Source: a virus. Taken from it: 45,188 nucleotides of DNA. Under the pieces are notes generated by a model that saw only the letters and a list, made by a program, of their open reading frames with translations, was not told where the DNA came from and searched no databases. This document shows positions 4,151-37,117 of this stretch, one piece after another; position 1 is the first letter of the stretch; each line of letters begins with the position of its first letter. The DNA is taken from IMG/VR virus record IMGVR_UViG_3300037508_001848, positions 1 through 45,188 of that record. The stretch is one strand, 5' to 3'. Position numbers and translations under genes: made by a program.

Positions 4151-5911
4151 GTGACCAAAGAACAATTAATTATAGAAGTTACAAAGTGCATGAGGAATAC
4201 TCCTTATGCACTTCGTACATATTTGCAAACTTACGATAATACTGTTTCTAAGTATGTTCCGTTGGATTTATTTCCTGACCAAATCAAGTTGATTGAGGAT
4301 TACGATAGTTGCAATGAAAATATCGCCTTAAAATATAGACAAGCGGGTGTTACTACGGTAACCGCTGCTTGGGCATCAAAAAAGTTAGTTTTTGCAAAAA
4401 AACAAAAACCTGAGAAAATTCTAATTATTGCCAACAAGCTCGATACCTCAGTTGAAATGGCTAATAAAATTCGTGGTTTCACTGAACAATGGCCCGCTTG
4501 GGTTGGAGTTGGTTTCTCCGCAGAAAAAAATTCCCAAAGGCATTTCAAACTTACCAATGATTGTGAAGTAAAAGCGGTAGCGACATCAAAAGACGCACTT
4601 AGAGGTTATACACCTACTATTCTTATTTTCGATGAGGCTGCGTTCATCGAAGCCGACAATGATTTCTGGTCTGCTTGTATGGCTTCCCTTTCTACAGGTG
4701 GTAAAGTAATTGTTGTTTCAACTCCAAATGGTTATGACCCAATTTATTATGAAATATACGACCAAGCTCTTAGAGGAATGAATGATTTTAAAATCTCCGA
4801 GATGTATTGGTTCAAAGACCCAAGATATACGAGAGATTTATTCATGGTCAAAACGAATGATTTAGTACATTATTTGTTGAACCGTGAAGAATACAAAGCT
4901 GAAGATATAGTTGATTTATCAGTAGAAAACCCATACGAAAGAGACCATGAAATAACAAAAGAATATATTTCAAAAGGTTACAAACCCTGTTCGTCTTGGT
5001 TCGAGAGTATGGTTAAAAAATTGAAGTATGATAGAAGAAAGGTGGCACAGGAGTTGGAGTGTAATTTCTTGGGTTCAGGAGACAATGTCTTTGACTCCGA
5101 TTTACTTTTGAACATATCAAAAAATCAACTCAGAGACCCTTCAGCAAAACTAATGGGTGGTGCTTTATGGATATTCAAAGAGCCCGAAAACAACCATAAG
5201 TATGTTATGGGATTAGACGTATCCAGAGGAGATTCTGAAGATTTCTCAAGTATACAAATTATTGATTTTGATGAAAGAGAGCAGGTATTAGAATATGTCG
5301 GGAAAGTACCTCCCGATGTCTTAGCTGAAATTGCCTTCAAATGGGGTTCAATGTACAACGCATATTGTGTAATTGATATAACAGGAGGTATGGGAGTTTC
5401 ATCCGCAAGAAAACTTCAGGAAATGAATTACGAATTTGGTCTTTATGTAGACAATGTGGACCCAAACAAAAAATGGAAGTGGGACCCAAAGGCAAATGAA
5501 AAAATACCGGGTATTAATTTCAATAATAAAAGGGTACAAATAATTGCTTCATTTGAAGAAGCGATACGACACGGATTTAAAATTTATTCTCATAGGACTT
5601 ATAATGAGATGAATACTTTTGTTTACATTAATGGTAGACCTGACCATCAGAAAGGTCAGCATGACGACTGTATTATGGGACTTTCGATGGCAATTTATGT
5701 CGCGGAGAAATCATTCCAGTCTTTACAAAAGGTTGTAAATCATACTAAGGCGATGTTAAATTCTTGGACAAGTATCTCACACGAAAATAAAAATACATCT
5801 GAATTTTTCAATCCAATGGTCCCTCAGATGGGTAGACAAAATGGATACAATTTCGGTGCACCTACTAAAGGTGACTACCAAAAATATGGATGGTTATTTG
5901 GTGTAAAATAA
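4151..5911 (+). CDS. terL: Terminase large subunit (gp17-like)
   Basis: This is the ATPase-nuclease motor that packages DNA into the prohead. The ATPase half shows a deviant Walker A (KYRQAGVTT, residues 61-69; the usual G-K-T is G-V-T), Walker B with the catalytic Glu (LIFDEAAFIE, 158-167) and the coupling motif VVSTPNG (188-194). The RNase H-like nuclease half shows acidic residues at GLDVSRGD (354-361), VIDITGG (407-413) and GQHDDC (502-507). Its 586 aa is close to T4 gp17. The only start that fits the spacing is a GTG, six bases after the upstream stop. No Shine-Dalgarno sequence is visible. It is followed directly by the portal gene, as in T4-like phages. Confidence 0.95.
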   Translation: MTKEQLIIEVTKCMRNTPYALRTYLQTYDNTVSKYVPLDLFPDQIKLIEDYDSCNENIALKYRQAGVTTVTAAWASKKLVFAKKQKPEKILIIANKLDTSVEMANKIRGFTEQWPAWVGVGFSAEKNSQRHFKLTNDCEVKAVATSKDALRGYTPTILIFDEAAFIEADNDFWSACMASLSTGGKVIVVSTPNGYDPIYYEIYDQALRGMNDFKISEMYWFKDPRYTRDLFMVKTNDLVHYLLNREEYKAEDIVDLSVENPYERDHEITKEYISKGYKPCSSWFESMVKKLKYDRRKVAQELECNFLGSGDNVFDSDLLLNISKNQLRDPSAKLMGGALWIFKEPENNHKYVMGLDVSRGDSEDFSSIQIIDFDEREQVLEYVGKVPPDVLAEIAFKWGSMYNAYCVIDITGGMGVSSARKLQEMNYEFGLYVDNVDPNKKWKWDPKANEKIPGINFNNKRVQIIASFEEAIRHGFKIYSHRTYNEMNTFVYINGRPDHQKGQHDDCIMGLSMAIYVAEKSFQSLQKVVNHTKAMLNSWTSISHENKNTSEFFNPMVPQMGRQNGYNFGAPTKGDYQKYGWLFGVK

Positions 5912-5948: not shown

Positions 5949-7784
5949 ATGAGTGAGCAGAATTTAACGGTATGGCAGAGACTTTCCAAAACATTTGGTC
6001 CTAATTCTTTACTGAACCAAGACTATCCAACTTATAAGTTTGATAAAACTGAGTTGTTAAGAACAAAGAATAGAGATGAATATGAAAGAGAGAAACTTCA
6101 AGCACAACAAAGTTATTATCTTGCAAATCAATGGGCTAAGGTAGAAAATAACCTTTATTCTCAGGCAATTTACTACGAACCATCAAGATTATCTGCTCAG
6201 TATGATTATGAATCAATGGAGTATACTCCTGAGATTTCAGCTGCGTTAGATATCTATGCCGAGGAGTCAACAACACCCAACGAAGATGGGTTTATTTTAC
6301 AAATTTATTCTGAGTCAAAAAGGATAAAGGGTGTATTAGCTGACCTATTCAACAACGCCTTGGACATTAACACCAACCTTCCAATGTGGACAAGAAATAC
6401 TTGTAAATACGGTGACAATTTTGTTTATTTAAAGTTGGACCCTGAAAAAGGAGTGGTTGGGTGTCAACAACTTCCGACAATTGAAATAGAGAGACGAGAA
6501 GTTGGTGTCAGTCAAAAAATTACTGTTGAGCCAGAAAAACCTGAGGATAGAAAAGCACTTCATTTTGATTGGAAGAATAAAAATATGACTTTTCAATCTT
6601 GGGAAATTGCTCACTTTAGATTATTAGGCGATGACAGAAGATTACCTTACGGTACATCTATGTTAGAAAAAGCAAGAAGGATTTGGAAACAACTTCTTTT
6701 GTCCGAGGATGCGATGTTAATTTATAGAACTTCAAGAGCGCCAGAAAGAAGAATTTTCAAGGTATTTGTTGGAAACATGAACGATGATGATGTTGAAGCA
6801 TATGTACAACGTGTTGCGAATAAGTTTAAGAGAGAACAAATTGTGGACAGTAAAACAGGTCAAGTTGATATGAGATTTAATCAAATGGCTGTTGACCAAG
6901 ATTATTTCGTACCGGTACGTGACCCAGCAGCACCAAGTCCAATTGATACATTAGCTGGGGCTCAAAATTTATCTGAAATTGCGGATATAGAATACATTCA
7001 AAAGAAACTATTAACGGCTTTACGTGTTCCAAAAGCATTTTTGGGATTTGAAGAAGTAGTTGGTGATGGTAAAAATTTATCATTACAAGATATTCGTTTC
7101 GCACGAACTATCAACAGAATTCAAAGGAGTATGTTACAGGAAATGAATAAGATTGCAATTATTCATTTATTCCTTTTGGGTTTTGAGGACGAACTTGATA
7201 ATTTTACTTTAGGTTTAACAAACCCTTCAACACAGGCGGACCTGTTGAAAATCGATGTTTGGAAAGAAAAAGTTCTATTATATAAAGACTTGGTTGCAGA
7301 CCCAGGAAACGGAATCCAGGCAACATCTTCTACTTGGGCTAAAAAACACATTTTTGGTTGGTCTGATGATGAGGTAAAACTCGATTTACAACAACAAAGA
7401 ATTGAAAGAGCGGTCGGAGAAGAATTAAAGGCAACTCCTACCGTAATAACTAAGACAGGGGTATTCGACAATATTGACAAACTTTACGGTTCCTCAACTG
7501 GTGGAACAAAATCGAGTGAGGCTTCCACGACACCAGGAGGTGAGGAAGTATTGGGTGGATTACCAAGTGCTGGTGGAGAGGAAACTTTACCAGCTGAAGC
7601 ACCAACAGCACCCGAAGAACCAGCACCAGCTGAAGCGGCAGTAACACCTGAGTCAAAGAACAAAGATATGAATATTTTGATTGAAAATGATTTGATTGAA
7701 GGTAAACAAATCATTGAACTTGGTGGTGCACAAGAATCTTTAGGAAAAATTTCTGAAGAACTAGACAAGTTATTGAACTCCTAA
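5949..7784 (+). CDS. 20: Portal vertex protein (gp20-like)
   Basis: This forms the dodecameric ring through which DNA enters and to which the neck attaches. The T4 gp20 signature region is visible (YESMEYTPEISAALDIYAEE, about residues 86-105), as are the downstream core GTSMLEKARRIWKQL and the FRTINRIQ-like helix (RFARTINRIQRSM). The last 100 residues are an Ala/Pro/Glu-rich tail followed by a short helix with several I/L-x-E sites (NILIENDLIEGKQIIE) that could suit the prohead protease. It lies 37 bases after terL, with a TATTTAT element at 5913-5919 in the gap. The length of 611 aa is longer than T4 gp20 because of the tail. Confidence 0.93.
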   Translation: MSEQNLTVWQRLSKTFGPNSLLNQDYPTYKFDKTELLRTKNRDEYEREKLQAQQSYYLANQWAKVENNLYSQAIYYEPSRLSAQYDYESMEYTPEISAALDIYAEESTTPNEDGFILQIYSESKRIKGVLADLFNNALDINTNLPMWTRNTCKYGDNFVYLKLDPEKGVVGCQQLPTIEIERREVGVSQKITVEPEKPEDRKALHFDWKNKNMTFQSWEIAHFRLLGDDRRLPYGTSMLEKARRIWKQLLLSEDAMLIYRTSRAPERRIFKVFVGNMNDDDVEAYVQRVANKFKREQIVDSKTGQVDMRFNQMAVDQDYFVPVRDPAAPSPIDTLAGAQNLSEIADIEYIQKKLLTALRVPKAFLGFEEVVGDGKNLSLQDIRFARTINRIQRSMLQEMNKIAIIHLFLLGFEDELDNFTLGLTNPSTQADLLKIDVWKEKVLLYKDLVADPGNGIQATSSTWAKKHIFGWSDDEVKLDLQQQRIERAVGEELKATPTVITKTGVFDNIDKLYGSSTGGTKSSEASTTPGGEEVLGGLPSAGGEETLPAEAPTAPEEPAPAEAAVTPESKNKDMNILIENDLIEGKQIIELGGAQESLGKISEELDKLLNS

Positions 7785-7809: not shown

Positions 7810-8508
7810 ATGACTTTCGGCCTAGTAAAATCAACAATTGAGTCAAACTTATTGGATTCGTATAAAAACGAAAAAGAGTTCAAAAAAACTCTCAGAGAAT
7901 TCAAAGAAAATGTTTTGAATAATAAACAAGTTTCAAAACTTTATTCAGTATACGACCAACTTTCTCAACCTCAAGGTTTAAATCAAGTTGATGCCGAAAA
8001 TTATTTGAATGAGGGGTTGAATTTGATTGAAAAAATTCTTCCATCGGTAAAGATGCCTTCATCAACAAAAAAATCAGAAAACAATCTTTATTCGGACATT
8101 GATACATTGGTTTACACAAACAAATTGAATTTGAAAGAAAGAATTCAATCAAGAAAAAATATTTTGAATGTTCTGATGAGTGAACCAAAAAAGATTACTG
8201 AGGGAATAAAAATTCCTGTTAGTTCAATGGTTAAAATTGCTAATTTAACTCTCGAAAACTATATCAAAGACATGGACTCAGAGAGTAAAAAAATATTCAT
8301 TGATGTAATCAAGGGAGATAAAGAAAATATGGAAAAAGATTACTCTACCTTGAAAGAAGGCACAATTGACAAATTGAAAACTTTGTTCACTGAGTCTGAA
8401 GAGGGTGAAATCAAATCCAAAATCTCTGAGACTATTGAAAAACTACAAAAAGAAGAATTCACTCAGATTAATTACGTGAAATTAATTTCTTTGAAAAACG
8501 GGTTATAA
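7810..8508 (+). CDS. Helical hypothetical protein between portal and protease (232 aa)
   Basis: The protein is almost entirely charged alpha-helix with likely coiled coils (KNEKEFKKTLREFKENVL near the start, SKISETIEKLQKEEF near the end). It has no membrane segment and no catalytic motif that I recognise. In T4 the genes between portal (20) and protease (21) are the prohead core genes 67 and 68, so by place this may be a core protein. That is inference from gene order. The gap before it carries TATTTAT at 7785-7791. Its last six bases overlap the convergent bS21 gene. Confidence 0.8.
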   Translation: MTFGLVKSTIESNLLDSYKNEKEFKKTLREFKENVLNNKQVSKLYSVYDQLSQPQGLNQVDAENYLNEGLNLIEKILPSVKMPSSTKKSENNLYSDIDTLVYTNKLNLKERIQSRKNILNVLMSEPKKITEGIKIPVSSMVKIANLTLENYIKDMDSESKKIFIDVIKGDKENMEKDYSTLKEGTIDKLKTLFTESEEGEIKSKISETIEKLQKEEFTQINYVKLISLKNGL

Positions 8509-8691
8509 TCCGTTCCTTTTTTTCTGAACGTAAATTGCTTTGAGAATTTTTTTCCTTGACTTTACAGATTTCTTTTCAAATTCTTTTCTTTCGTTTAGAA
8601 TTTGATTTTGTTTTGTTTTGATGACTTTGTTTTTGAGAATTTTTAAAGACTTCTCTAAGTTGTCATTATTTTTTACTTCTATAATTAACAT
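8503..8691 (-). CDS. rpsU: Ribosomal protein bS21, Bacteroidota-like
   Basis: The 62-residue basic protein begins MLIIEVKNNDNLEKSLK and continues with RKEFEKKSVKSRKKILKAIY and a KKRNG end. This matches the layout of small-subunit protein bS21 as I know it from Bacteroidota (MLII-VK start, central R-x-x-F-x-K-x-S, then K-K-A-x-Y-x-Q-x-R). bS21 sits near the anti-Shine-Dalgarno end of 16S rRNA and affects initiation. It is the only minus-strand gene inside the portal-to-capsid block and converges on its neighbour with a six-base overlap. An ATAAATA (TATTTAT on the coding strand) lies nine bases before the ATG. There is no Shine-Dalgarno sequence. Identification rests on pattern memory, not an alignment. 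Confidence 0.8.
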   Translation of the reverse strand: MLIIEVKNNDNLEKSLKILKNKVIKTKQNQILNERKEFEKKSVKSRKKILKAIYVQKKRNGL

Positions 8692-8700
8692 AATTCTAAA

Positions 8701-8707
8701 ATAAATA
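8701..8707 (-). promoter_or_regulatory. TATTTAT element before bS21 gene
   Basis: Reads ATAAATA on the plus strand, 9 bases upstream of the bS21 start. The context on the coding strand is GTATATTTATT, almost the same as before the protease gene. Confidence 0.45.
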
Positions 8708-8786
8708 TACTAATTGTTTTCATTTTTGACAATGAAACAACTTACTCTTATTTTTAACAAAAATAAACATAGTAATATGAACAAAA

Positions 8787-9215
8787 ATGAAAAAAGGAAA
8801 AAGTGTAAAACTAAATCTATTCAACCCAATAAAATCAATGTATGGAACGGTAGATTCTAAAAATTTGAAATCTGTTTTTATAAACATTCAATCTTGGGTC
8901 ACACCCAAAAATGAAATGGAAAATTGGGGTAGAGTTGTTGGTAATCTGAACAGAGAAATCAAACATTCGATTTTAAATTCCAATAAATCTGAAATATTTC
9001 TTCCAAAAACTATAGTCGATTTAGACTTACGTGTTAGTGGTATTTCAATAGGTAAAAAATCTTTTTTTAATCTTGAAGTTAATTTGTTTTCAAACGAACA
9101 ATTAGATTTTAAATCTGAAAAAATCAAATTTGAAATCAAACAAATTATTAAATCTATCTACATTAACAATATCGAAAAAAACAAATATTTTACTTTTTCT
9201 AAGTCAAAAAAATAA
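8787..9215 (+). CDS. Hypothetical protein, 142 aa, upstream of prohead protease
   Basis: A basic protein starting MKKGKSVKLNLFNPIKSM with alternating strand and helix character (ISIGKKSFFNLEVNLFS) and a Lys-rich end (FTFSKSKK). It has no recognised motif, signal or membrane segment. It sits alone between the bS21 gene and the protease gene, with about 95 bases of AT-rich DNA before it and 39 after. The codon style is like its neighbours. Function unknown; a head-assembly role is only suggested by place. Confidence 0.75.
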   Translation: MKKGKSVKLNLFNPIKSMYGTVDSKNLKSVFINIQSWVTPKNEMENWGRVVGNLNREIKHSILNSNKSEIFLPKTIVDLDLRVSGISIGKKSFFNLEVNLFSNEQLDFKSEKIKFEIKQIIKSIYINNIEKNKYFTFSKSKK

Positions 9216-9254: not shown

Positions 9255-9968
9255 ATGAAACAACTTCGTATATTAGAGGCAAATGAACTTGGTCACGGAA
9301 TTCTTATAGAGATGGACGCGGGTTTTATAAATCCAAATGACTCATTGAATTTACCATTGTTGGAACAAGCAAAAAAATTAGATTATAAAAGTCCTTTTGA
9401 ATTCTATGCTGTACTTCAAAAGTATGACACACCAAATAGAAACGGAAGATTTTATCCTGAAAAAATATTAAAAAGAGAAGCGGATAGATATAAAAAAATT
9501 ATTCAAAAAGGACTATCTACATCAGAACTAAATCACCCTGAATCGTCTCTTATTGACTTAGATAGAGTATCTCATTTAATAACTGACATATGGTGGGATA
9601 AAAACATATTGATGGGTAAATTGAAACTTCTTACAAGTCCGGGTTTCCACGAAACAGGTGTAGTATCTTGTAAAGGAGATGTTGCAGCAAATTTAATGAG
9701 ACAAGGAGTAACTATGGGAGTTTCATCGAGAGGTGTTGGGTCATTAAAAAAAGTTGGTGAAAGAAACGAAGTTCAAGATGACTTTGAATTAATTTGTTTT
9801 GATTTAGTTTCTTCACCGTCAACACCCGGTGCTTATTTATTTTCTGATGTAAATGAGAGGGGTCAATACGAAGAAAATTTAGAGGAAGAAAAAGTTGCAA
9901 AACTTGAAGGTCCAATGAATAAATCTATTGATTTAATGAAAAAACTTAACGATTTTTTGGGAAAATAA
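9255..9968 (+). CDS. 21: Prohead core protease (gp21-like)
   Basis: This is the serine protease that matures the prohead by cutting core and capsid proteins after I/L-x-E. The family motifs are visible: a substrate-channel region NGRFYPEKIL (63-72), the histidine motif SELNHPES (90-97, His94) and the serine motif MGVSSRGVG (154-162). The length of 237 aa is near T4 gp21 (212 aa). Its acidic C-terminus (EENLEEEKVAKLEG) holds possible self-cleavage sites. TATTTAT at 9235-9241 lies 13 bases before the ATG. It is followed after 4 bases by the 70-aa gene. Confidence 0.92.
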   Translation: MKQLRILEANELGHGILIEMDAGFINPNDSLNLPLLEQAKKLDYKSPFEFYAVLQKYDTPNRNGRFYPEKILKREADRYKKIIQKGLSTSELNHPESSLIDLDRVSHLITDIWWDKNILMGKLKLLTSPGFHETGVVSCKGDVAANLMRQGVTMGVSSRGVGSLKKVGERNEVQDDFELICFDLVSSPSTPGAYLFSDVNERGQYEENLEEEKVAKLEGPMNKSIDLMKKLNDFLGK

Positions 9969-10185: not shown

Positions 10186-10208
10186 AAGTGGTCTTAGGGC
10201 CACTTTTT
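10184..10208 (+). terminator. Rho-independent terminator after the protease unit
   Basis: A ten-pair stem with a TTAG loop (AAAAGTGGTC / GGCCACTTTT, one G-T pair) ends in a T run. It starts at the stop codon of the 70-aa gene. A new TATTTAT element follows at 10221-10227. Confidence 0.75.
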
Positions 10209-10220
10209 AGTTTTTATAAC

Positions 10221-10227
10221 TATTTAT
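10221..10227 (+). promoter_or_regulatory. TATTTAT element after terminator, before 112-aa gene
   Basis: Lies between the terminator at 10184-10208 and the ATG at 10245, 17 bases before it, in the context AACTATTTATTG. A promoter is expected here because the previous unit ends just upstream. Confidence 0.5.
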
Positions 10228-10244
10228 TGTCAAATTTACTTTTT

Positions 10245-10583
10245 ATGTATATTTCTGTTTCCTATAAAGATTCGAGGGAGGGCAACCTTCTCGCCGTAGT
10301 CGAATGTAATACTTTTTCTTCAGGTATCAATTATTTGGAAAAACAAGGTTTTCAAATTATCGGTTCAAATCTTGTAACATCTACCATGGATGTAAAATCT
10401 GCCATGGCTACAGTAAGTTGGAGATTACAATTTAGTTTGATTGAGGGAAGTAGTGTTGATACCGTAATAATTTTTGATGATGACTGGAGACAAATTCAAG
10501 CTGTTATAGACATGAGAAAAGAAATGGGTTGGCAAATAGATTTTATGACAAGACAGGTTTCAAGTTTTTTCTCAGCAGTATAA
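10245..10583 (+). CDS. Hypothetical protein, 112 aa
   Basis: A GTG at 10188 would give a longer frame, but it lies inside the terminator hairpin. The ATG at 10245 comes after the TATTTAT element at 10221-10227, so I take that as the start (MYISVSYKDSREGNLLAVVE). The protein has alternating strands and one conserved-looking centre (VDTVIIFDDDWRQIQ), with no motif I recognise. It stands alone between a terminator and the scaffold gene, so it may be its own short transcript or the leader of the scaffold-capsid unit. Function unknown. Confidence 0.7.
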   Translation: MYISVSYKDSREGNLLAVVECNTFSSGINYLEKQGFQIIGSNLVTSTMDVKSAMATVSWRLQFSLIEGSSVDTVIIFDDDWRQIQAVIDMRKEMGWQIDFMTRQVSSFFSAV

Positions 10584-12279: not shown

Positions 12280-14091
12280 ATGGGAGCATTATTAGAATCA
12301 GGTCTTGTTGGTAACATCGGTCTTAAGCACCTTAAAGTTATCAAAGAAGACACAATCAGCAAGTGGGACAAATTAGGATTCCTTGAGGGTCTTAAAGGTC
12401 ACTTGAAAGAAAACGTAGCTCAGCTTTATGAAAACCAAGCAAGTTACTTAATCAACGAAGCAGCAACGACATCTGATACAGGTGCGTTTGAAACTGTGGT
12501 TTTCCCTATCGTTAGAAGAGTTTTCTCTAAATTGTTAGCTAACGATATTGTATCAGTACAAGCAATGAACTTACCAATTGGTAAATTGTTCTACTTTGTA
12601 CCTAACATTCAGAATTATACGGATGAAAGCACTGCTGATAACGGTATTCACCGTGCACCAGTAGGAGCACCAAACGGTCCAACAGACCCAAACAATGGTT
12701 ACGATTATAATGCAGGAAGAGACCTTTATGATAGATTTTATGAAGGTAACGAACCAGCATTAGACCCACCAGGTTTGTATGACTATTCTAAAGGTCAGTT
12801 CTCAGCTGTAACAGGTACTGCAGTAACCGCTGTATGGAACAACACAACTTTGAACTTAAATGTTTCAGGTTATGGTGAAGACAATTACAGAAAGGTATTG
12901 TTAATCATGTCAGGTTTTGCTAGCGATGGTGCTGGTAAATTAATTGGTCCTGATGGTCAACCAATGGACAACGAGTCTTTCTTGGCTGATTTGACTATCT
13001 ATGGTAGTGCAACAGGAAATAACCTCAACACTGGTACAGGAAAAGCTGGTGGTCCATACCTTTTCAGAGTTGTAACTCAGAGATACGGTAAAGGAATCGT
13101 TCAGTATGGTAATACGAACGCAACTGCAGTTTTCCCTAACAGTAAAACAGGTGGTGGTCAGTATGATGACCTTTGTACTCCTGATGGAGAAATCTATCTT
13201 GAAGTAGACCTTCAGGTTCCATGTTGTGTAAGTTGCACAGGATGTATTGATGGTTACACAGGTTCAACATTCTCTTCAACTACAGCAAATAACCAAGCTT
13301 TCACTCCTGTATACAGAATTTACAAGAATTTGGAATTCGAAGACAGAATGGGTGAGGTTTCATTTGACCTTATGTCAGTAACAGTTTCTGTAACTGAAAG
13401 AAAATTAAGAGCTCAATGGTCACCAGAAATGGCACAAGACGTTGCAGCATTCCACAACATCGACGCTGAAGCTGAATTGACAGCTTTGTTGTCTGAGCAA
13501 GTTGCAGCTGAAATCGATAGAGAAATCTTGAGAGACCTTAGAAAAGGTGCAGCTTGGAACTTGAGATGGGATTACAACGGTTGGAAGAGATTAGGTACTA
13601 ACGCAGTTCCTTACACTCAGAAAGACTGGAACCAAACGCTTATCACAGCAATCAACCAAATTTCAGCTCAAATCCATAAGTCTACTTTAAGAGGTGGTGC
13701 TAACTGGATTGTTGTATCTTCTGAAATCAGTGCAATTTTTGATGACTTGGAGTATTTCCACGTTTCAAATGCAGCTCCTGAGCAAGACCAATATAACATG
13801 GGTATTGAAAGAGTTGGTACTTTAGCTGGTAGATATCAAGTGTATAGAGACCCTTATTTCCCACCAAACCAAGTGTTGTTGGGTCACAAAGGTACATCTT
13901 TACTTGACACAGGTTACATCTACGCACCATATGTACCTTTACAACTTACTCCAACAATGTATAACCCATTCAACTTCACACCTATCAAGGGTATCATGAC
14001 TAGATACGCTAAGAAAATGGTTAACAACCGTTTCTATGGTAGAATCACAGTTGATGGAGTTAGAACATTCGATTTGAAAGAGTTGAGATAA
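12280..14091 (+). CDS. 23: Major capsid protein (gp23-like)
   Basis: This builds the head shell. T4 gp23 family landmarks are FPIVRRVFSKLLANDIVSVQ (71-90), the LRAQWSPEMAQD region in the middle and the end KGIMTRYAKKMVNNRFYGRI. A likely protease cut is after Glu60 (LINE, then AATTSDTGAF), matching the position and I-x-E rule of the T4 delta domain. At 603 aa it is longer than T4 gp23 (521 aa). The extra length lies roughly at residues 115-350 and includes a Cys-rich loop (VPCCVSCTGC), perhaps an outer insertion domain. The leader is a short A-rich stretch without a Shine-Dalgarno sequence. A strong terminator follows the stop. Confidence 0.95.
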   Translation: MGALLESGLVGNIGLKHLKVIKEDTISKWDKLGFLEGLKGHLKENVAQLYENQASYLINEAATTSDTGAFETVVFPIVRRVFSKLLANDIVSVQAMNLPIGKLFYFVPNIQNYTDESTADNGIHRAPVGAPNGPTDPNNGYDYNAGRDLYDRFYEGNEPALDPPGLYDYSKGQFSAVTGTAVTAVWNNTTLNLNVSGYGEDNYRKVLLIMSGFASDGAGKLIGPDGQPMDNESFLADLTIYGSATGNNLNTGTGKAGGPYLFRVVTQRYGKGIVQYGNTNATAVFPNSKTGGGQYDDLCTPDGEIYLEVDLQVPCCVSCTGCIDGYTGSTFSSTTANNQAFTPVYRIYKNLEFEDRMGEVSFDLMSVTVSVTERKLRAQWSPEMAQDVAAFHNIDAEAELTALLSEQVAAEIDREILRDLRKGAAWNLRWDYNGWKRLGTNAVPYTQKDWNQTLITAINQISAQIHKSTLRGGANWIVVSSEISAIFDDLEYFHVSNAAPEQDQYNMGIERVGTLAGRYQVYRDPYFPPNQVLLGHKGTSLLDTGYIYAPYVPLQLTPTMYNPFNFTPIKGIMTRYAKKMVNNRFYGRITVDGVRTFDLKELR

Positions 14092-22692: not shown

Positions 22693-23496
22693 TTATATTG
22701 TAGATGGTTCATATTTTATGACTCTGTCGTCAGTAAAGAAATATTCTTGTTTTGCACTTTGAATCCAAAATCTAACTTCAGGTTCTGATAGGATAGAATC
22801 ACCGAACTTGTAATTCCAAAATATGGAGCCTTCTCTCATATTTGTGTGTTTGTATCCAAGTCTTGGTATGGTCATGATTTGTACTGAGTTGTAAGTTAAT
22901 CTCAATAAAAATTCATAAATAAATGTTAATTGGAAATTAGGTTTGATACCACCGAAGTCTTCAAATATAGTTTTCTTCATTGCAGAACCAGAAACTTGGA
23001 AGTTTTGGTAATCTTGTAGCGTGTCGTTAGTTAAAATACCCATTTCTTGTGAAAAATTTGCAGCGAACGTAGCTTCATTTGTGAAACCTGCAAATCCACC
23101 CTTCTCGTCCGTTTCTACAACGACCGGTAAGAACACTTGAACTTCAGGATACGCTTGAGAGTACTTTTGAACATTTTCGAACCAAATATTTGAGTATTCA
23201 TCATCGAACTCCAAAACAGAAACCCATTCACCTTTAGCACTTTTGACACCAAAGTTAACCTGAGATGCAAAATTTGGAGTTTCATTCCAAATGACTCTGT
23301 TAACAGTGAGAGTTCCAAAATCATAAGTGTCCAAAAAGTTTGTAAGTTGTTCCTCTTGAGTTGCAACTATAAGTAATTCTTCGATTTCGATTTTTTGATT
23401 TTTAATTGAATCTATCGCTTTAGTAAAATAATCCGCGAAATCTTTTGTGACTGCAGATTTCAAAGGTAGAATAACGGATAGTGAAAGTTTTTTCAT
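22693..23496 (-). CDS. GT-A (family 2-like) glycosyltransferase
   Basis: The frame extends upstream to 23574, but that would overlap the previous gene by 77 bases. The ATG at 23496 lies one base after the upstream stop and gives the natural N-terminus KKLSLSVILPLKSAVTKDF. Typical GT-A features follow: the nucleotide-binding first strand (SVILPL), KGEWVSVLEFDDEYS near residue 115 with an acidic metal-binding cluster in place of the usual D-x-D, and a GGIKPNFQ region. The length is 267 aa. The sugar donor is unknown. First of the tight glycan operon next to the sigma gene. Confidence 0.8.
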   Translation of the reverse strand: MKKLSLSVILPLKSAVTKDFADYFTKAIDSIKNQKIEIEELLIVATQEEQLTNFLDTYDFGTLTVNRVIWNETPNFASQVNFGVKSAKGEWVSVLEFDDEYSNIWFENVQKYSQAYPEVQVFLPVVVETDEKGGFAGFTNEATFAANFSQEMGILTNDTLQDYQNFQVSGSAMKKTIFEDFGGIKPNFQLTFIYEFLLRLTYNSVQIMTIPRLGYKHTNMREGSIFWNYKFGDSILSEPEVRFWIQSAKQEYFFTDDRVIKYEPSTI

Positions 23497-23497
23497 A

Positions 23498-24553
23498 TTA
23501 GTCGTTGAGTTTTGAAATTTGTTCTTCGAATGAGTTTGCTCGGGTTGTAAGATATGAATTGAATAGTTCAACAACCTCAGTTTCGAATTTTTGTTTATTG
23601 GTAAATTTTTCTGCAGTTTGTTCCATATTGGTATACAAATCTGGTTTGATGTTATCCTCTAACCAATTTTGAATAAAATCTGCAATGAAGTCAGTCATCA
23701 AGGTTACATCTGTAATCCATATACCATTGTCTTCATTTATCCAACTTGGTTGTAAATCAGGTATTTTACCCAAACAAGGTACACCACAAGCCATAGATTC
23801 AAGTGGAAATGTACCGAAACCGGATTTATCATCAATCCACACACTTAAACAACACTCCTTGAGTGAATTTGCAAAATCTTTTTCACTTAAACCTCTCATA
23901 TCTCTAAAAGTAAACCATCTAAATTGTGGGAATTTGAGATAGAAAGTTTTGATAAGATTTATTGCGTCTTCCTGTTCTTTTGTATGAACTGCAATAATCG
24001 GCATTGGAGGTAAATTTCTTTTTCGGAAATTTTCTGTAATGTAAGGTTCTACAATGTCAAAACTTGCTTGTCTCATAACTTTTTCTATGTATTCTTTCTG
24101 TTTGCCTGACGTTGTGAGACATTTGTAAAAACCAAACTGAGACCAACCTTGTCCTGGTTGTAAAGTTTCAGTAATGTATGCGTATGACTGAACTAAAACA
24201 ATTTTTGCACATGGTAACTTCTTTACTTGGTCCATTACATAACCGAAAATTTCAGGAACCACTAAAAAATCCTCAGGAGTAATTTCTAAATTTTGACTTT
24301 CAATCGATTGATGAGGTAATTTTTCCATGTATTCTTTACCTAACCAATTTGAAACTCCAGCGTAGTCGTTTTTTTCGTGGAGGATTATTGGATTAAATTC
24401 GGCATTTTTTAAAGCCATTGCCATCTGATAAATGTATCTAACAGAAGCTCTAGCATTACCTTTAGTGTCTTGAACAAAAAGATAAATTTTAGCCTTTTTT
24501 TCTCGTAGATTTTTTATTGACAATTCTACTCTTTCTTTGTTTACGTTTGACAT
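23498..24553 (-). CDS. GT-B glycosyltransferase (family 4-like)
   Basis: The C-terminal half shows the GT-B donor-site signature GFGTFPLESMACGVPCLG (E-x7-E type, near residues 246-263). The N-terminal half opens AKIYLFVQDTKGNARASVRY. No membrane segment is seen, so it should be cytoplasmic. It is followed after one base by the GT2-like gene and preceded after one base by the 90-aa gene. Acceptor and donor cannot be read from sequence. Confidence 0.85.
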   Translation of the reverse strand: MSNVNKERVELSIKNLREKKAKIYLFVQDTKGNARASVRYIYQMAMALKNAEFNPIILHEKNDYAGVSNWLGKEYMEKLPHQSIESQNLEITPEDFLVVPEIFGYVMDQVKKLPCAKIVLVQSYAYITETLQPGQGWSQFGFYKCLTTSGKQKEYIEKVMRQASFDIVEPYITENFRKRNLPPMPIIAVHTKEQEDAINLIKTFYLKFPQFRWFTFRDMRGLSEKDFANSLKECCLSVWIDDKSGFGTFPLESMACGVPCLGKIPDLQPSWINEDNGIWITDVTLMTDFIADFIQNWLEDNIKPDLYTNMEQTAEKFTNKQKFETEVVELFNSYLTTRANSFEEQISKLND

Positions 24554-24554
24554 A

Positions 24555-24827
24555 TTAATAATGATTAATCAATTTTTTATTTAAAAGTGTATTGAATGCA
24601 ATTTTGAATGGTATACTAACTTCTTTGGACTTCATTCCGAGTTTATCATCCATATCTGGATTTTCTGTAAGAAGAACTTCCATTAACATTTTCACCATTT
24701 CGAATTTTATTATATTAACTCTACTTTCAGTACCACCAGTAATATCAGACTCAATTTCTCTGATATCTAAATAATTTTCTATTTCGTCTAAATCAACAAA
24801 ATAACTTTCACCTAAGACATTTAACAT
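24555..24827 (-). CDS. Small hypothetical protein, 90 aa
   Basis: A helical acidic protein beginning MLNVLGESYFVDLDEIENYL and continuing KFEMVKMLMEVLLTENPDMD. It overlaps the upstream HAD-like gene by seven bases, which supports co-translation. No family is recognised, though proteins of this size and look are common near phoH in T4-like phages, as I recall. Function unknown. Confidence 0.72.
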   Translation of the reverse strand: MLNVLGESYFVDLDEIENYLDIREIESDITGGTESRVNIIKFEMVKMLMEVLLTENPDMDDKLGMKSKEVSIPFKIAFNTLLNKKLINHY

Positions 24828-25417
24828 ATTTCTGAAATTTTTTGTTTTAAATCCTTGATACTTTCAACTTCGTGAGTTACATGGATATGTGAATTATAAG
24901 AAGTTTTGAATTTAATTAAAGTTTTATCTGTTGGAGCATTTAATAATAATTTAGGATTAGCTGTTACCAAACAATCCAAAGTAGACCACATCGAATCAAT
25001 AGTTGTTTCACTATAAAATTTATAGTTCTCGACTAAACATCCAAACTTTGATAAGAAAAATAAAGAAGCGGGTTTGGATTTACCAATTTCATCTGAAACA
25101 ATCCAAATATCATGATTATCTCTATGGTCAATATAAAATTCATTCAAGTCATTCATTCCGTTATACTCAACGGAACCAGCATGACCGAAAATTTCCATAG
25201 TGTATTCTTTATAGAGAAAATTATATACTTCATCTTCATCTTTAAATTTGAGGTGCTCCATCAAATTCAATGAGGTAACATCTGATAAAACTTCATATCC
25301 GAAAGACTCTTTTTCTTCACTAAGAAAAGGGTTTTCTATATTCCATTTTTGATAGACCTCTTGAATTTTTTTTAGGGTATCTCTCAAAACTCCATTTATT
25401 TCAATACCAATTTTCAT
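24821..25417 (-). CDS. HAD-like protein with degenerate active site (198 aa)
   Basis: The N-terminus MKIGIEINGVLRDTLKK copies the first motif of HAD phosphatases (D-x-D-G-V-L-x-D-T), but the nucleophile Asp is Glu and the second Asp is Asn. A motif-II-like stretch (IWIVSDEIGKSKPASLFFL) with Ser and Lys is present. The fold is probably HAD or 5'-nucleotidase-like, while catalysis is doubtful. It overlaps the phoH gene upstream by ATGA and the 90-aa gene downstream. A regulatory or binding role is possible; that is inference. Confidence 0.65.
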   Translation of the reverse strand: MKIGIEINGVLRDTLKKIQEVYQKWNIENPFLSEEKESFGYEVLSDVTSLNLMEHLKFKDEDEVYNFLYKEYTMEIFGHAGSVEYNGMNDLNEFYIDHRDNHDIWIVSDEIGKSKPASLFFLSKFGCLVENYKFYSETTIDSMWSTLDCLVTANPKLLLNAPTDKTLIKFKTSYNSHIHVTHEVESIKDLKQKISEIC

Positions 25418-26145
25418 TCTTCGTATCTTTGTAAAATTTTACTTATTAATGGGTTTCTTACAACATCAACAGGTTTGAACTCAAAAACTCCAACGTCTTC
25501 CATTTCCTTGAATTTTAATAGAGCATCCCAAAGACCTGTTTGTGTTTTATCTTTGTGTCTATCAAATTGGTCCAAATCACCTGAGATAAAAAACTTAGAA
25601 TTAAATCCAATTCTTGTTAGGAGTAACTTCATTTGATTAGGAGTTGCGTTTTGTGCTTCTTCGAAAATCAAAATTGAATTATCAATATTCATTCCTCTCA
25701 TATATGCCAAAGCGAAAACTTCGATTGATTCTATCTCTTTGAGTTTTTCTCGAGCTTCTTTTCCGATAATTTTGTTCAAAAGATAATAAGACGGAAAAAT
25801 GTACGGGTCAAGTTTTTCCTCTACACCACCAGGTAAACTTCCTAACTTTTCTTCAGCTTCAACAGCTGGTCTAACAATTATTATTTTTTCATATGAGTTT
25901 TCAGGGTCGGCTAAAAGGTCAATCGCACATTTCATTGCAATATAACTTTTACCTACTCCCGCAGGACCAGAACAAATAGTAATTTGATTTGTTTTTAGTA
26001 ATCTGTAATATTCTTTTTGACTTTCACTTAAAAATTTTTCTTTGGTTTTTTTCTTAATTATTTGATTTATAATTTCCTTTTTTGATTTTGGTTTTTCATC
26101 TGGTGTTGGTAAGGGTGTTGATATTAATCTTTTAGTTTTACCCAT
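25414..26145 (-). CDS. phoH: PhoH-like P-loop ATPase
   Basis: PhoH family proteins are P-loop ATPases, some with RNA helicase or nuclease links, and are very common in aquatic phages. Walker A is CSGPAGVGKSY (58-68) and Walker B is ILIFEEAQN (158-166, with Glu-Glu where Asp-Glu is usual). The IIIVRPAVEAEEKLGSLPGG stretch (88-107) and the arginine-containing TRIGFNSKFFISGDLDQFD are typical. The length of 243 aa is normal for phage forms without an N-terminal PIN domain. It sits in the glycan operon, four bases overlapping the HAD-like gene. Confidence 0.93.
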   Translation of the reverse strand: MGKTKRLISTPLPTPDEKPKSKKEIINQIIKKKTKEKFLSESQKEYYRLLKTNQITICSGPAGVGKSYIAMKCAIDLLADPENSYEKIIIVRPAVEAEEKLGSLPGGVEEKLDPYIFPSYYLLNKIIGKEAREKLKEIESIEVFALAYMRGMNIDNSILIFEEAQNATPNQMKLLLTRIGFNSKFFISGDLDQFDRHKDKTQTGLWDALLKFKEMEDVGVFEFKPVDVVRNPLISKILQRYEE

Positions 26146-26161
26146 TTTTGAATTTTTAATT

Positions 26162-26548
26162 TTATTTTTTGTAATCTACATACTCTTTGACCTCTCTTAT
26201 CTCGGATGAAGTTAATGAATTAATTTCATTTTTAAGTTCAAACCTTTTATCATTTGTGAAATAAACTTTTCTTGCCATATCAATAAATTCACCCTCAAAG
26301 CGACCGTCCTTTTCTAAAATTCTAAGTCTGTCCTCGATTTCCCAAAGATTGGAGTTTGTTGAAACTAACTCGTGATATAAATTTTCAATTAAGTTATTGT
26401 TCAAAAACTCCGATGACAAATTGTATAAAAGTTCAAACTCCTTTTTAATGTATTCTAATTTTTGAGGGTTTGTAACTTTTGTCTTTTTAACTTGTAGGAT
26501 TGAAAGTTTATCAATCAATTCACCGACACTAACTGGTACGTTAATCAT
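26162..26548 (-). CDS. DUF6165-like protein (128 aa)
   Basis: Starts MINVPVSVGELIDKLSILQV and contains NSNLWEIEDRLRILE and FIDMARKVYFTNDKRFELKN. This is the pattern of DUF6165 as I know it, a family often found among lipopolysaccharide and capsule sugar genes and of unknown activity. It lies between phoH and gmd. The match is from memory and the role in glycan work is inferred from its neighbours. Confidence 0.7.
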   Translation of the reverse strand: MINVPVSVGELIDKLSILQVKKTKVTNPQKLEYIKKEFELLYNLSSEFLNNNLIENLYHELVSTNSNLWEIEDRLRILEKDGRFEGEFIDMARKVYFTNDKRFELKNEINSLTSSEIREVKEYVDYKK

Positions 26549-26552
26549 AATA

Positions 26553-27530
26553 TTAATTTTTATAATAGTTTATCCAATGTTCAATCATTTCGTCTAACAT
26601 AGTTTCGAAATTATATTCAGGTGTCCACCCTGTGACCCTTTTTAATTTTGAACAATCTCCTTTCAGGTTATTTAGTTCTTCTGGTCTTAGAAATTTTTCA
26701 TCCATTTTTACATACATTTCATAGTTCAAATCAAGTTTACCAAAAACATATTCACAGAGTTCTTTTACCGAGTGAGAAATTCCTGTAGAGCAAACAAAAT
26801 CATCTGATTGTTCTTGTTGTAAAATTAACCACATGGCTTTAACAAAGTCTTTAGCGTGTCCCCAATCTCTCGTGGCATCCAAATTACCTAATTTTAACTC
26901 ATTAGATAATCCAAGTTTTATTTTGACAGCTTCTTTACAAACTTTGTTTGTTACAAAATTGGTACCTCTTCTTGGTGATTCATGATTAAAAAGAATACCA
27001 TTTGAAATGAACATTCCATATGAGTTTCTATAGTTCCTACAAATGTTATAAGAGAATACTTTAGCACATCCGTAAGGGGAAACTGGATTCATTGGGGTTG
27101 TTTCCCTCTGAAATCCATCATGGTCAATACAATTACCAAACATCTCTGATGATGATGCTTGATATATTTTTATATTCTTATCAACAAGTTTAACTGCTTC
27201 TAAAATATTGAGTGTACCAAGTCCAGTAACATTTGCGGTGTAGATAGGTTGGTCGAAAGAAATTCTAACATGTGATTGTGCTGCTAAATTATAAATTTCG
27301 GATGGTTTACATTTTTGTATAACTGTTATGAGAGAAGATAAATCTGTAAGGTCGGCATAATGAAGTTTAATTTTGGAAAAAATCTTTTCTAATCTGGCTG
27401 TCTGATTTTCTGAAATAGAGTTTCTTTTCAAGGTTCCGTGGACTTCATAACCTTTTTCCAATAAAAATTCGGCCAAGTATGAACCGTCTTGACCATTAAT
27501 GCCCGTGATAAGTGCAATTTTATTTGTCAT
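26553..27530 (-). CDS. gmd: GDP-mannose 4,6-dehydratase
   Basis: This NAD(P)-dependent short-chain dehydrogenase makes GDP-4-keto-6-deoxy-D-mannose, the shared precursor of GDP-L-fucose, GDP-colitose and GDP-perosamine. Visible features are the Rossmann glycines GINGQDGS (10-17), NLAAQSHV (81-88), the catalytic Ser/Glu region ASSSEMFG (125-132), Y153-x3-K157 (SPYGCAK) and the Gmd-specific FNHESPRRG (181-189). Its 325 aa is slightly shorter than typical. Two downstream-acting enzymes for this precursor are encoded a few genes away, so it opens a complete route. Confidence 0.93.
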   Translation of the reverse strand: MTNKIALITGINGQDGSYLAEFLLEKGYEVHGTLKRNSISENQTARLEKIFSKIKLHYADLTDLSSLITVIQKCKPSEIYNLAAQSHVRISFDQPIYTANVTGLGTLNILEAVKLVDKNIKIYQASSSEMFGNCIDHDGFQRETTPMNPVSPYGCAKVFSYNICRNYRNSYGMFISNGILFNHESPRRGTNFVTNKVCKEAVKIKLGLSNELKLGNLDATRDWGHAKDFVKAMWLILQQEQSDDFVCSTGISHSVKELCEYVFGKLDLNYEMYVKMDEKFLRPEELNNLKGDCSKLKRVTGWTPEYNFETMLDEMIEHWINYYKN

Positions 27531-27531
27531 T

Positions 27532-28317
27532 TTAATTTAGTCTAACGTAATTTAATTTTGAATTTGAAAAAATCGAAAACGTAGATAAATTTGATGTTGT
27601 ACAAAAAAGTTTTTTTGTTTTTCCGAGGCCGACAGCACCAAACACAATTTCTTGAATATGTTTTTTGATTGAATCTTCATTGTTGTGCTGTTTGAAAAAA
27701 GGGAGTTTTTCATCGTTTGAAGAAAAATCATCAAACGTTATCAACCTTTCCCCGTAACGCTCCGAAAATTGATTTTTATCTTGAATGTTGTCTGACATTA
27801 AAAATATGTTTTCGAATTCTTCTTTATCTAATATATCAAAAATTTGTGATAATTGAATTGTTGTTAAATTATGAACGGTCTCCATGTCTGTGGCACGTCT
27901 GTGAAAACCAATTGTATTTTCAAAATTTATTTGTGGAAACCTTGAATAAAACAAATATTCCATTTTCTCATTAAATAAAAAATGTTTTTTGATTATTTCC
28001 TCGGTCATTTCTAGATTTTCTTTCGAAAATGTTTTTGAGTTATAAGGGTCTAAACTAGTTTTTAGACTTAGTGACTCAATATCTACGTAACTTTTTTTGT
28101 GTTCAAGCCAGTCTTGTTTGTCTTGAAGAAAACATATATCATAGATGTTTCCCTTACCGTATCCATAGATGTCTTCCAAATCATAATATATTTTGAAAGT
28201 TTCATTTGGAAACGTCAGGTATAAATTTTGAATATGTACAACGGCCTCCGTGATGTAAGAAAAATAACCTCTTTGATGAATGTCCTTACCTCTTGCCGGT
28301 TTAAAAAACCTTAACAT
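27532..28317 (-). CDS. Putative fucosyltransferase-type glycosyltransferase
   Basis: A 261-aa protein with the motif IGFHRRATDME, which resembles the H-x-R-R-x-D donor site of fucosyltransferase families such as GT11, GT23 and O-fucosyltransferases, and a Ser/Asn-rich C-terminal strand (CTTSNLSTFSIFSNS) in the place where these enzymes have N-S-T/S-F-S. It is encoded one base away from gmd, which makes the donor precursor. Family assignment is tentative. Confidence 0.6.
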   Translation of the reverse strand: MLRFFKPARGKDIHQRGYFSYITEAVVHIQNLYLTFPNETFKIYYDLEDIYGYGKGNIYDICFLQDKQDWLEHKKSYVDIESLSLKTSLDPYNSKTFSKENLEMTEEIIKKHFLFNEKMEYLFYSRFPQINFENTIGFHRRATDMETVHNLTTIQLSQIFDILDKEEFENIFLMSDNIQDKNQFSERYGERLITFDDFSSNDEKLPFFKQHNNEDSIKKHIQEIVFGAVGLGKTKKLFCTTSNLSTFSIFSNSKLNYVRLN

Positions 28318-28319
28318 CC

Positions 28320-29483
28320 TTATTGGTATTTTAATAATATCTCACAAACTCTATCGATATCTTCATTGGTCATTTTGTCGTGGTTCGGAACATAAATTCC
28401 TCTCTCATCTATAATTGAACAATTAGGAAGTTTTTTCTCACCATAAAGTTTTTTGTAAAACGGTTGTGTTCCCATGGAACCAGATATTAATGGTCTACAA
28501 GCAATGTTGTTGTCCTGTAAATCTTTAACTAAATTTTCTTTGTCTTCGCTAGATTTTGTAATCACAGGAATTGCGAAGTTGGATGTGAATTCGTTTTCGA
28601 ATGATTTTGGAAACCAAATTTTACCGTCCAATTTTGATTTATAATAAAGAAAATTATTATATCTGTTTTGTATCATCCCATCAACTTTGTCAAGTTGTTG
28701 AAGTCCTATTTGGGCTTGTAAATCCGTACTACGAAGATTAAAACCGGGAATATAAAAAGTATAAAGAGCTGAAAAATCTGTTACATCCCAAGCTGAACGT
28801 AGTTCCTTTTGTTTATCTTCGGTTAAATCTCTGTCCCAACCATGACTTCTTAATTGAAGTAATGTTTCATATACCTCTTTATTATTTGTTGAAATCATTC
28901 CCCCTTCTATGGTCGACATGGTGTGTCCAAAGTAAGTTGAGAATGAAGTCATAAGACCAAAGTTTCCAAGTTTTACATTTTCGAATTTTGTGCCTTGTGA
29001 CTCACAATTGTCCTCCAATAAAATGACATCATATTTTTCACAAAGTTCAGTGATTTTTTTGATGTTTGGGGATAGACCAAGAACGGAAACTAAAATAAGA
29101 ACAGAAGGACTTTCCTTAATAAAAATTTCTTCTAAGTGTTCCAAATCAACTGAGAGATTATCCAAATTACAATCCACTAATAAAGGTTCCATATCGAATT
29201 GTAACACAGGTGCTAAGTCAGTTGCCCAACATAATGAGGGAACACAAACTTTGTTATTTTTCATTTTATTCAAAACTTTCAATGCGTACAACATCAAAAG
29301 ATTTGCAGAGGAACCAGAGTTTACAAAAACAGAATATTTGGTTCCTAACCAATTTGACCATTTGGATTCAAACTCTAAGGTCTTTGAGCCTTTTGTTAAT
29401 CTTGGATAAGTTTTTAACCATTCTATTAGAGAATCAATGTCTTTGTTATCAATAGTATCTTGAATTAAATCAATACGTTTCAT
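28320..29483 (-). CDS. colD: GDP-4-keto-6-deoxymannose 3-dehydratase (ColD-like)
   Basis: Fold-type I PLP enzyme of the DegT/StrS aminotransferase family. The Schiff-base lysine is replaced by His187 within STYFGHTMSTIEGGM; this His substitution with the FGH-x-MSTIEGG context marks ColD, which removes the 3-hydroxyl of GDP-4-keto-6-deoxymannose for colitose synthesis. Asp158 (ILLEDNC) should hold the PLP ring nitrogen, and VNSGSSANLL (54-63) is the phosphate-site region. Its 387 aa matches ColD. It overlaps the next enzyme gene by four bases and lies one gene from gmd. The specificity is inferred from the motif; a related His-bearing dehydratase is the alternative. Confidence 0.8.
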   Translation of the reverse strand: MKRIDLIQDTIDNKDIDSLIEWLKTYPRLTKGSKTLEFESKWSNWLGTKYSVFVNSGSSANLLMLYALKVLNKMKNNKVCVPSLCWATDLAPVLQFDMEPLLVDCNLDNLSVDLEHLEEIFIKESPSVLILVSVLGLSPNIKKITELCEKYDVILLEDNCESQGTKFENVKLGNFGLMTSFSTYFGHTMSTIEGGMISTNNKEVYETLLQLRSHGWDRDLTEDKQKELRSAWDVTDFSALYTFYIPGFNLRSTDLQAQIGLQQLDKVDGMIQNRYNNFLYYKSKLDGKIWFPKSFENEFTSNFAIPVITKSSEDKENLVKDLQDNNIACRPLISGSMGTQPFYKKLYGEKKLPNCSIIDERGIYVPNHDKMTNEDIDRVCEILLKYQ

Positions 29484-30403
29484 TTTCTTAATGTATTATA
29501 ATTTTTTATAAACCAATCAATAGTTTCATTAATACCAACATTAATATCTGTGAGTGAAAAGTCCATCGGTATGTCAGAAATAGCAGGTTTTCTAAACTGA
29601 CCTCTTGGTTTGGATGCATCGAAAAACAATTTATCTTCGCTGATTTCGAATTTTTTCACGACCATCTTTACAATGTCCATCACAGAATGTTCTTGAGCAT
29701 TTACTGCCATAAATGGAACCTCTGATTTCCAATTTTCGATAGCCCAAAGAATAATTCTCGCAAGGTCTCTCGAATGAATAAATTGTCTCAATGGTGTTCC
29801 ATCTCCCCAAACTACAAAGTCCTCATTTTTTTCTTTGCAGTGATATGCTCGGTATATAATACCAGGTATCATATGACTGTGGTCAGGGTGAAAGTTATCA
29901 TGTGGACCGTATACGTTTGTTGGGACAATATTAATCCAATTTCTTCCTGTTAGATTTCTTATAATTTTTGTTTGATAACCTGAAAGTCTTTTTGCATAAG
30001 AATATCCGTGATTTGATGGGTGTGGTGGTGCAATGTCGATTTGGTCTGCGGTGAGTGGGTAAGTGATATTTGAGTCTGGAAATATACAAGTAGATGATAA
30101 GTTCACAAAGTTTTCTACACCTGAGACAAAAGCCGCAGTAATAACATTGTGATTGATTTTATAATTTTCTTCAAAAAACAACTCGTTGTTTGTTGAATTA
30201 GCTTGAACACCTCCGACTTTAGCTGCACAGTGTATAATGGTGTCAACTCCATTATTCTTTACATTGTGGGTTATGTAATTAAGAGTGTTCTCTTCATGTT
30301 TGAGGTCTACGTCTTTTCTTGTGTGGTAAACGTGTCCCTCACCTAAGATTTCTTTAAGGGCATTTCCCACTAATCCATTTGAGCCTGTTACTAAAACTTT
30401 CAT
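29480..30403 (-). CDS. GDP-fucose synthase / ColC-like epimerase-reductase
   Basis: An extended short-chain dehydrogenase that epimerises and reduces 4-keto-deoxy GDP sugars. Family residues are seen: Rossmann GSNGLVG (7-13), KVGGVQAN (62-69), Ser104 and Cys106 (SSTCIFP), Y134-x3-K138 (YSYAK), and His179 in NFHPDHSHMIPG. GDP-fucose synthase and ColC share these, so the product may be GDP-L-fucose or, with the ColD-like partner next door, GDP-L-colitose. The four-base overlap with the ColD-like gene favours the colitose reading. It also overlaps the GT11 gene by four bases. Confidence 0.85.
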   Translation of the reverse strand: MKVLVTGSNGLVGNALKEILGEGHVYHTRKDVDLKHEENTLNYITHNVKNNGVDTIIHCAAKVGGVQANSTNNELFFEENYKINHNVITAAFVSGVENFVNLSSTCIFPDSNITYPLTADQIDIAPPHPSNHGYSYAKRLSGYQTKIIRNLTGRNWINIVPTNVYGPHDNFHPDHSHMIPGIIYRAYHCKEKNEDFVVWGDGTPLRQFIHSRDLARIILWAIENWKSEVPFMAVNAQEHSVMDIVKMVVKKFEISEDKLFFDASKPRGQFRKPAISDIPMDFSLTDINVGINETIDWFIKNYNTLRK

Positions 30404-31182: not shown

Positions 31183-31184
31183 TA

Positions 31185-31982: not shown

Positions 31983-31986
31983 ATTA

Positions 31987-32757: not shown

Positions 32758-32758
32758 A

Positions 32759-33310: not shown

Positions 33311-33311
33311 T

Positions 33312-34001: not shown

Positions 34002-34002
34002 T

Positions 34003-36505: not shown

Positions 36506-36522
36506 CGTGTTAGGTTTAAAAA

Positions 36523-37116: not shown

Positions 37117-37117
37117 A

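Follow-up and report, generated by a model that had tools for sequence, protein, structure and literature searches.

Known phage-borne bS21 systems

Of all ribosomal proteins, bS21 is reportedly the one that phages carry most often, by a wide margin, and in Bacteroidota ribosomes it helps to form the pocket in which the anti-Shine-Dalgarno (anti-SD) sequence is hidden. The closest described systems are the lake phages of Chen et al. (2022, PMC9723584), in which this type of bS21 gene and its inverted arrangement are already published. There, a reverse-strand gene for a Bacteroidota-type bS21 with an aromatic residue 54 lies between terminase/portal and prohead protease/major capsid genes, flanked by genes for two hypothetical proteins, and Chen et al. 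described late expression of bS21 with the structural genes, conservation of Tyr54 and separation of the phage from the host sequences. Pelagiphage HTVC008M, also a myovirus, carries a bS21 of alphaproteobacterial rather than Bacteroidota type, which enters E. coli ribosomes and lowers GFP synthesis to ~5% (Mizuno et al. 2019, PMC6375957). Microcystis phage Mel-JY01 (PP395634) likewise has an RpsU gene in its head module and a portal protein related to the one described here; its gene (L214:9557-9784) differs in being co-directional, in following the protease gene and in encoding no Tyr54-type C-terminus, and this different place and orientation hint at an independent acquisition. That a phage bS21 replaces the host protein has been proposed before (Mizuno 2019, PMC6375957; Chen 2022, PMC9723584; McNutt 2023, PMC9976891).

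An inverted bS21 gene in a T4-type head module

The stretch analysed here (the window) is a virus contig of 45,188 bases with a GC content of 33.7%, and it derives from a lytic-type myovirus of Bacteroidota, probably of Flavobacteriia. Its bS21 locus comprises the following features.

4151..5911, + strand: terminase large subunit (phrog_2, 9.6e-41)
5949..7784, + strand: T4-type portal protein, Gp20 (PF07230, 5e-75)
7810..8508, + strand: 232-aa hypothetical protein, convergent with bS21, the 3′ ends overlapping by 6 nt
8497..8514, either strand: stem-loop at the convergent ends of the 232-aa gene and bS21, with a T-run on the + side and a weaker one on the − side
8503..8691, − strand: phage bS21 gene, 62 aa, ATG start (PF01165, PDB bS21 matches, dN/dS, two-helix model)
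8701..8709, − strand: TATATTTAT, promoter-like element of bS21 (contains TATTTAT, the top enriched 7-mer)
8726..8754, + strand: promoter-like site of the 142-aa gene (TTTGAC/TTGACA plus TATTTT)
8787..9215, + strand: 142-aa protein, divergent from bS21, conserved at a near-constant distance in nearly all relatives
9255..9968, + strand: T4-type prohead core protease (PF03420, 2.3e-22)
12280..14091, + strand: major capsid protein Gp23 (PF07068, 1.5e-70)

An earlier note, made from the sequence, had placed bS21 on the opposite strand inside the head genes, and the terminase, portal, protease and Gp23 genes indeed surround the inverted gene. The same order, with bS21 between terminase/portal and prohead protease/capsid at nearly constant distances, was found in 73 of 74 related IMG/VR loci, judged as far as the contigs reach, the sole exception being L058. 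A tblastn search of a phage collection with this bS21 returned nothing beyond a single huge phage genome, present as 2 records, with 50% identity. The phages of Chen et al. have GC contents of 31.0-33.7% and share with this record sugar-chemistry genes, a DegT aminotransferase and a dUTPase; this phage very likely belongs to that group. The sugar genes here form a large cluster at 22693-37819 (−) with several glycosyltransferases, the DegT aminotransferase, an epimerase, a fucosyltransferase-like gene and methyltransferases, which probably serves surface glycan remodelling.

The stem-loop between the convergent genes was the one structure found by a scan in which 0.2 were expected, and it folds with −6.5 and −7.4 kcal/mol, at z values of only −0.7 and −1.9; it is a probable terminator, able to end transcription from either side. 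An Rfam search of the whole window gave no match. Further into the head module, many relatives lack the 131-aa gene at 10188-10583 (+), between the genes for 70-aa and 532-aa proteins, or have another in its place, which sets it apart from the genes next to it. At the right end, an apparent 2.6 kb gene-free gap at 41.6-44.2 kb proved to be an artefact of listing closed open-reading frames, as an open tail-type gene lies there. Towards the 3′ part of this frame (41690-45188, +), which runs off the record, there is an extended Thr/Pro-rich repeat (TPTxTPT-like); a TATTTAT stands 9 nt before the start of the frame, and the product is probably a tail or fibre protein.

Identity of the protein and its divergence from host bS21

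The protein encoded from 8691 to 8503 on the − strand, MLIIEVKNNDNLEKSLKILKNKVIKTKQNQILNERKEFEKKSVKSRKKILKAIYVQKKRNGL, is certainly a bS21. The profile search that the earlier note had suggested aligned Pfam Ribosomal_S21 (PF01165) to residues 4-56 (E = 1.1e-9), scoring 38.3 bits where 27 is the cut-off, and the PHROG family 'ribosomal protein S21' matched at 0.005; NCBIfam TIGR00030, a model tuned to cellular proteins, scored 22.3, under its own cut-off of 28.95. The best solved relatives in the PDB were the bS21 chains 9i5v (3.5e-9) and 7jil (1.2e-6), the latter from the F. johnsoniae ribosome (PMC9723584). These closest chains are Bacteroidota bS21 and Tyr54, the aromatic residue that stacks on A1534, is present here as in nearly all relatives, in agreement with the Bacteroidota-type resemblance first noticed from the sequence. 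The AlphaFold model (pLDDT 86) has helices at 12-35 and 41-59, as in a bS21, and eight of its nine Foldseek matches in the PDB came from ribosome entries, with a chain label and a size that agree with bS21; their weak scores (E 0.3-1.6) are expected because bS21 is a short, two-helix protein modelled away from its rRNA. The gene is under purifying selection, with a dN/dS of 0.04-0.14 among the relatives for which dS could be estimated. Profile score, dN/dS and synteny together rule out a chance reading frame, and the gene is a phage copy, as had been supposed.

When 42 phage and 29 Flavobacteriales bS21 proteins were placed in one tree, a comparison also called for by the earlier note, the phage proteins fell on one side of a branch with support 100/96. 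This shows that they are distinct; as the phage sequences were chosen by similarity to the query, it does not show that every phage bS21 has the same origin. Phage and host proteins have K40, S42, R46, K51, A52, Y54 and Q56 in common, which are the residues that anchor bS21 and touch the 16S tail. At positions 18, 21 and 24 there is zero overlap between phage and host residues, at 5, 8-10, 23 and 28-30 there is little, and Q28 is invariant among the phage proteins; these differences match the N-terminal divergence of phage bS21 reported by Chen et al. (2022). Compared with F. johnsoniae rpsU/bS21 (PMC9976891; PDB 7JIL), the phage protein has the same length, helices, Tyr54 and C-terminal core, and differs in the helix residues 18, 21, 23, 24 and 28, in the lack of an extended SD and in a promoter close to the start.

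This pattern bears on what the protein might do. The simplest alternative to a specialised function is supply outside host control, in which phage bS21 only tops up the ribosomes of the late phase, once host rpsU has been shut off or host bS21 has been lost, and mRNA choice stays unchanged. The retained C-terminal and Tyr54 contacts fit such a role, as do two observations set out below, namely that phage genes have the same SD-less starts as host genes and that the bS21 mRNA appears uncoupled from host autoregulation. The consistent phage-specific changes in the N-terminal helix, together with a tree in which the phage sequences occupy one side, point to something beyond a copy, and we regard mere supply as possible. 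A virion role, with bS21 packaged or taking part in head assembly, for instance with the divergent neighbour, could be read from the location between portal and protease genes and from the conservation of that neighbour; the ribosome-contact residues are strictly kept and the neighbour also occurs in phages that have no bS21, so we consider this highly improbable.

Host genomes gave one further observation. Nearly all Flavobacteriales searched have one bS21 gene, and Tenacibaculum skagerrakense (L076 / G001) has four over the cut-off, which possibly reflects specialised ribosomes in the host itself.

A TATTTAT element upstream of bS21 and other phage genes

The gene's own TATTTAT element, pointed out in the earlier note, lies at 8707-8701 (−) and ends 9 nt before the bS21 ATG. 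TATTTAT is the most enriched 7-mer within 45 nt upstream of the genes of the window, where 10 of its 14 copies fall; the naive binomial p of 4e-13 ignores AT-richness, and among 7-mers of equal composition it is still a clear outlier (10, the next having 6). The enrichment recurs in the relatives tested, including two that have no bS21, which argues for a phage-wide promoter element. Furthermore, its distance to the start is specific to each gene and kept across phages (portal 29, protease ~13, 232-aa gene ~16 and 532-aa gene ~23), as a promoter would show. On this basis TATTTAT is probably a phage-wide late promoter element, and the late timing suspected at first reading is probable, given the late expression that Chen et al. 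observed in phages related to this one.

Which factor reads the element can be narrowed by comparison. The host consensus is TAHHTTTG, a −7 element that stands 4-5 nt from the transcription start (PMC6847099). The TATATTTA of the window is one base off this consensus and the commonest form in relatives, GATATTTN, does not have the first T, deviations that make a phage factor plausible; the element also differs from the T4 late promoter TATAAATA. A ~250-aa protein weakly similar to the T4 late sigma factor gp55 was found in 11 of 11 larger relatives tested. All nine members of this protein family that were compared matched phrog_234 (late sigma) weakly, at best with 2e-4, the hhalign profile comparison with gp55 gave a probability of 72%, and gp55 was the top PDB match with E 0.08, although it was not recovered with a 4-row profile. 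The relationship to gp55 thus appears remote, and the pairing of this sigma-like protein with the TATTTAT promoter is one that we infer. In the nearest relative (G002) the gene lies ~14 kb upstream of bS21, and by analogy it would fall beyond the left end of this record. The gp55-like protein is present in relatives L190-L193 and L196-L206 and is a candidate reader of TATTTAT. Separately, a second and clear sigma-70-type factor occurs in relatives L188, L189 and L194, with regions 1.2, 2 and 4 in L194; of seven relatives searched with Sigma70_r2, two gave such a factor, and one of these two is without bS21.

A TTGACAA/TTGTCAA palindrome at 8722-8732 is −35-like towards both divergent genes in the window, and its TTGTCA (8732-8727) reads towards bS21 at a perfect spacing of 17. 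In relatives the spacing from the bS21 element to the upstream GTCA is mostly 18-22 nt with a peak at 20, and only the spacing of the palindrome towards the 142-aa gene is fixed, so that a sigma-70 −35 function for bS21 is doubtful. Before the 142-aa gene, TTTGAC-18 nt-TA(n)TTTT was found in 58 of the 60 distinct intergenic regions that have both elements.

A predicted nearly leaderless start and a missing extended SD

The bS21 gene stands out by how close the element lies to its start codon. TATTTAT-type elements occur 5-9 nt before the bS21 start in most relatives, and of 81 distinct leaders, 46 have an ATATTT whose end is exactly 7 nt from the ATG, while in 63 the distance is at most 11 nt. 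A T directly precedes the ATG in all 81 bS21 leaders, compared with 20 of 51 genes of the window, and an element-to-start distance of 6 nt or less was found for 57% of bS21 genes vs 12% of other late genes (Mann-Whitney p = 7e-4). If the element stands as far from the transcription start as the −7 element does in the host (4-5 nt), the commonest bS21 mRNA would begin 1-2 nt before the AUG, and that of the window ~5-6 nt before it. Judged from this spacing, the phage bS21 mRNA should be nearly leaderless. Transcripts of F. johnsoniae have a mean leader of 33 nt and 87% of them a leader longer than 10 nt (PMC6847099). E. coli ribosomes without bS1 and bS21 favour leaderless mRNAs (PMC12186496), a preference that makes the near-leaderless arrangement suggestive for a bS21 gene in particular.

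For SD pairing we took the 16S tail to be AUCACCUCCUUUCU. An extended SD, with pairing below −13 kcal/mol, was present in 0 of 81 distinct phage leaders and in 5 of 29 distinct host leaders (Fisher p = 1e-3, only a guide as the sequences are related, and most sampled hosts likewise have no extended SD). In some Flavobacteriales the extended SD of rpsU lets ribosomes that lack bS21 make bS21 (McNutt 2023, PMC9976891), and without it the synthesis of phage bS21 would escape this host loop.

Across the phage genes, no SD signal beyond that of shuffled sequence was detected (4% vs 2% below −6 kcal/mol), which argues against SD-driven phage mRNAs that would profit from an exposed anti-SD. The earlier note had suggested that phage bS21 alters start-site choice in favour of phage mRNAs; the simplest version of this, exposure of the anti-SD for phage SDs, is disfavoured because Tyr54, which helps to mask the anti-SD tail, is kept and phage genes are almost devoid of SD signal. 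A broader form was proposed by Chen et al., in which ribosomes carrying phage bS21 prefer late phage mRNAs or disfavour host mRNAs. The divergent N-terminal helix above the mRNA path, the co-expression with structural genes in related phages and the short A-/T-rich leaders of late phage genes are all consistent with such a selective hijack. Against it, we found no sequence feature of phage mRNAs that would need a changed ribosome and no SD signal above that of shuffled sequence, and we hold this version to be doubtful.

The divergent neighbour and a clade without bS21

The 142-aa protein is probably the bS21_CN of Chen et al. AlphaFold confidently predicts an alpha/beta fold (pLDDT 91, pTM 0.86), for which a structure search of the PDB for a function returned only weak matches and one uncharacterised viral relative. 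Among its best 80 relatives, bS21 lies close by in 68, the contig end interrupts 2 and 10 have no bS21, so that 10 of 78 usable loci have the neighbour without an adjacent bS21 and a strict coupling of the two is ruled out. The ten loci represent seven distinct neighbour sequences, which cluster together (SH-aLRT 97). At the place of bS21, between the flanking genes, they have a hairpin of the GTGTTTTTAC...GTAAAAACAC type followed by a T-run, read by eye, which looks terminator-like, and a search of seven of these bS21-less records over their whole length, one of them of 309 kb, found no bS21. Hence bS21 is acquired or lost as one unit, and the neighbour is not an obligate partner; a sister clade with the same head module and no bS21 also means that bS21 is not essential to this lifestyle. 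Chen et al. (PMC9723584) reported the neighbour to be absent from two outgroups, whereas here it persists without bS21. That paper does not describe the sister clade that retains the neighbour, nor the TATTTAT element, the near-leaderless start, the missing autoregulatory SD or the gp55-like protein.

A proposed role for phage bS21

Taken together, we favour an account of late TATTTAT transcription, replacement of host bS21 and tuned SD-less initiation, to which we assign a probability of roughly 0.6 as a whole. In the late phase, the TATTTAT-type element, probably read by the phage gp55-like sigma factor, would drive bS21 opposite the head genes and yield a short mRNA almost without a leader. 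Having no extended SD, this mRNA would place phage bS21 synthesis outside the host autoregulatory loop. The protein would then take the place of host bS21 in 30S subunits. Its C-terminal contacts (Tyr54), which keep the 16S tail in the pocket, are retained, and its N-terminal helix, which faces the mRNA path, is altered. Replacement is likely by homology and precedent, and for Bacteroidota ribosomes we infer it. Any translational benefit would most likely be that SD-less initiation is kept or tuned on the flood of late phage mRNAs.

Counting against this account is the sole functional assay of a viral bS21, in which the pelagiphage protein left E. coli ribosomes with ~5% activity, though there the species were mismatched. 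The same figure would fit an inhibitor, whereby poorly active ribosomes with phage bS21 mainly repress host translation. Expression alongside the head genes, at a time of what must be peak phage protein synthesis, and the host-like C-terminal contacts make such a shut-off improbable.

Within the favoured account of late transcription and replacement, a more specific form can be put forward tentatively: a near-leaderless late mRNA and a phage sigma factor may re-equip ribosomes outside the host loop and so produce phage-specialised ribosomes, in which the anti-SD stays hidden but leaderless or short-leader late mRNAs are treated differently. What is new here is the architecture of the bS21 control region, which is testable. 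Through the comparisons that they offer, the promoter-start architecture, the missing SD and the bS21-less sister clade make the question of specialised ribosomes in these phages a concrete one.
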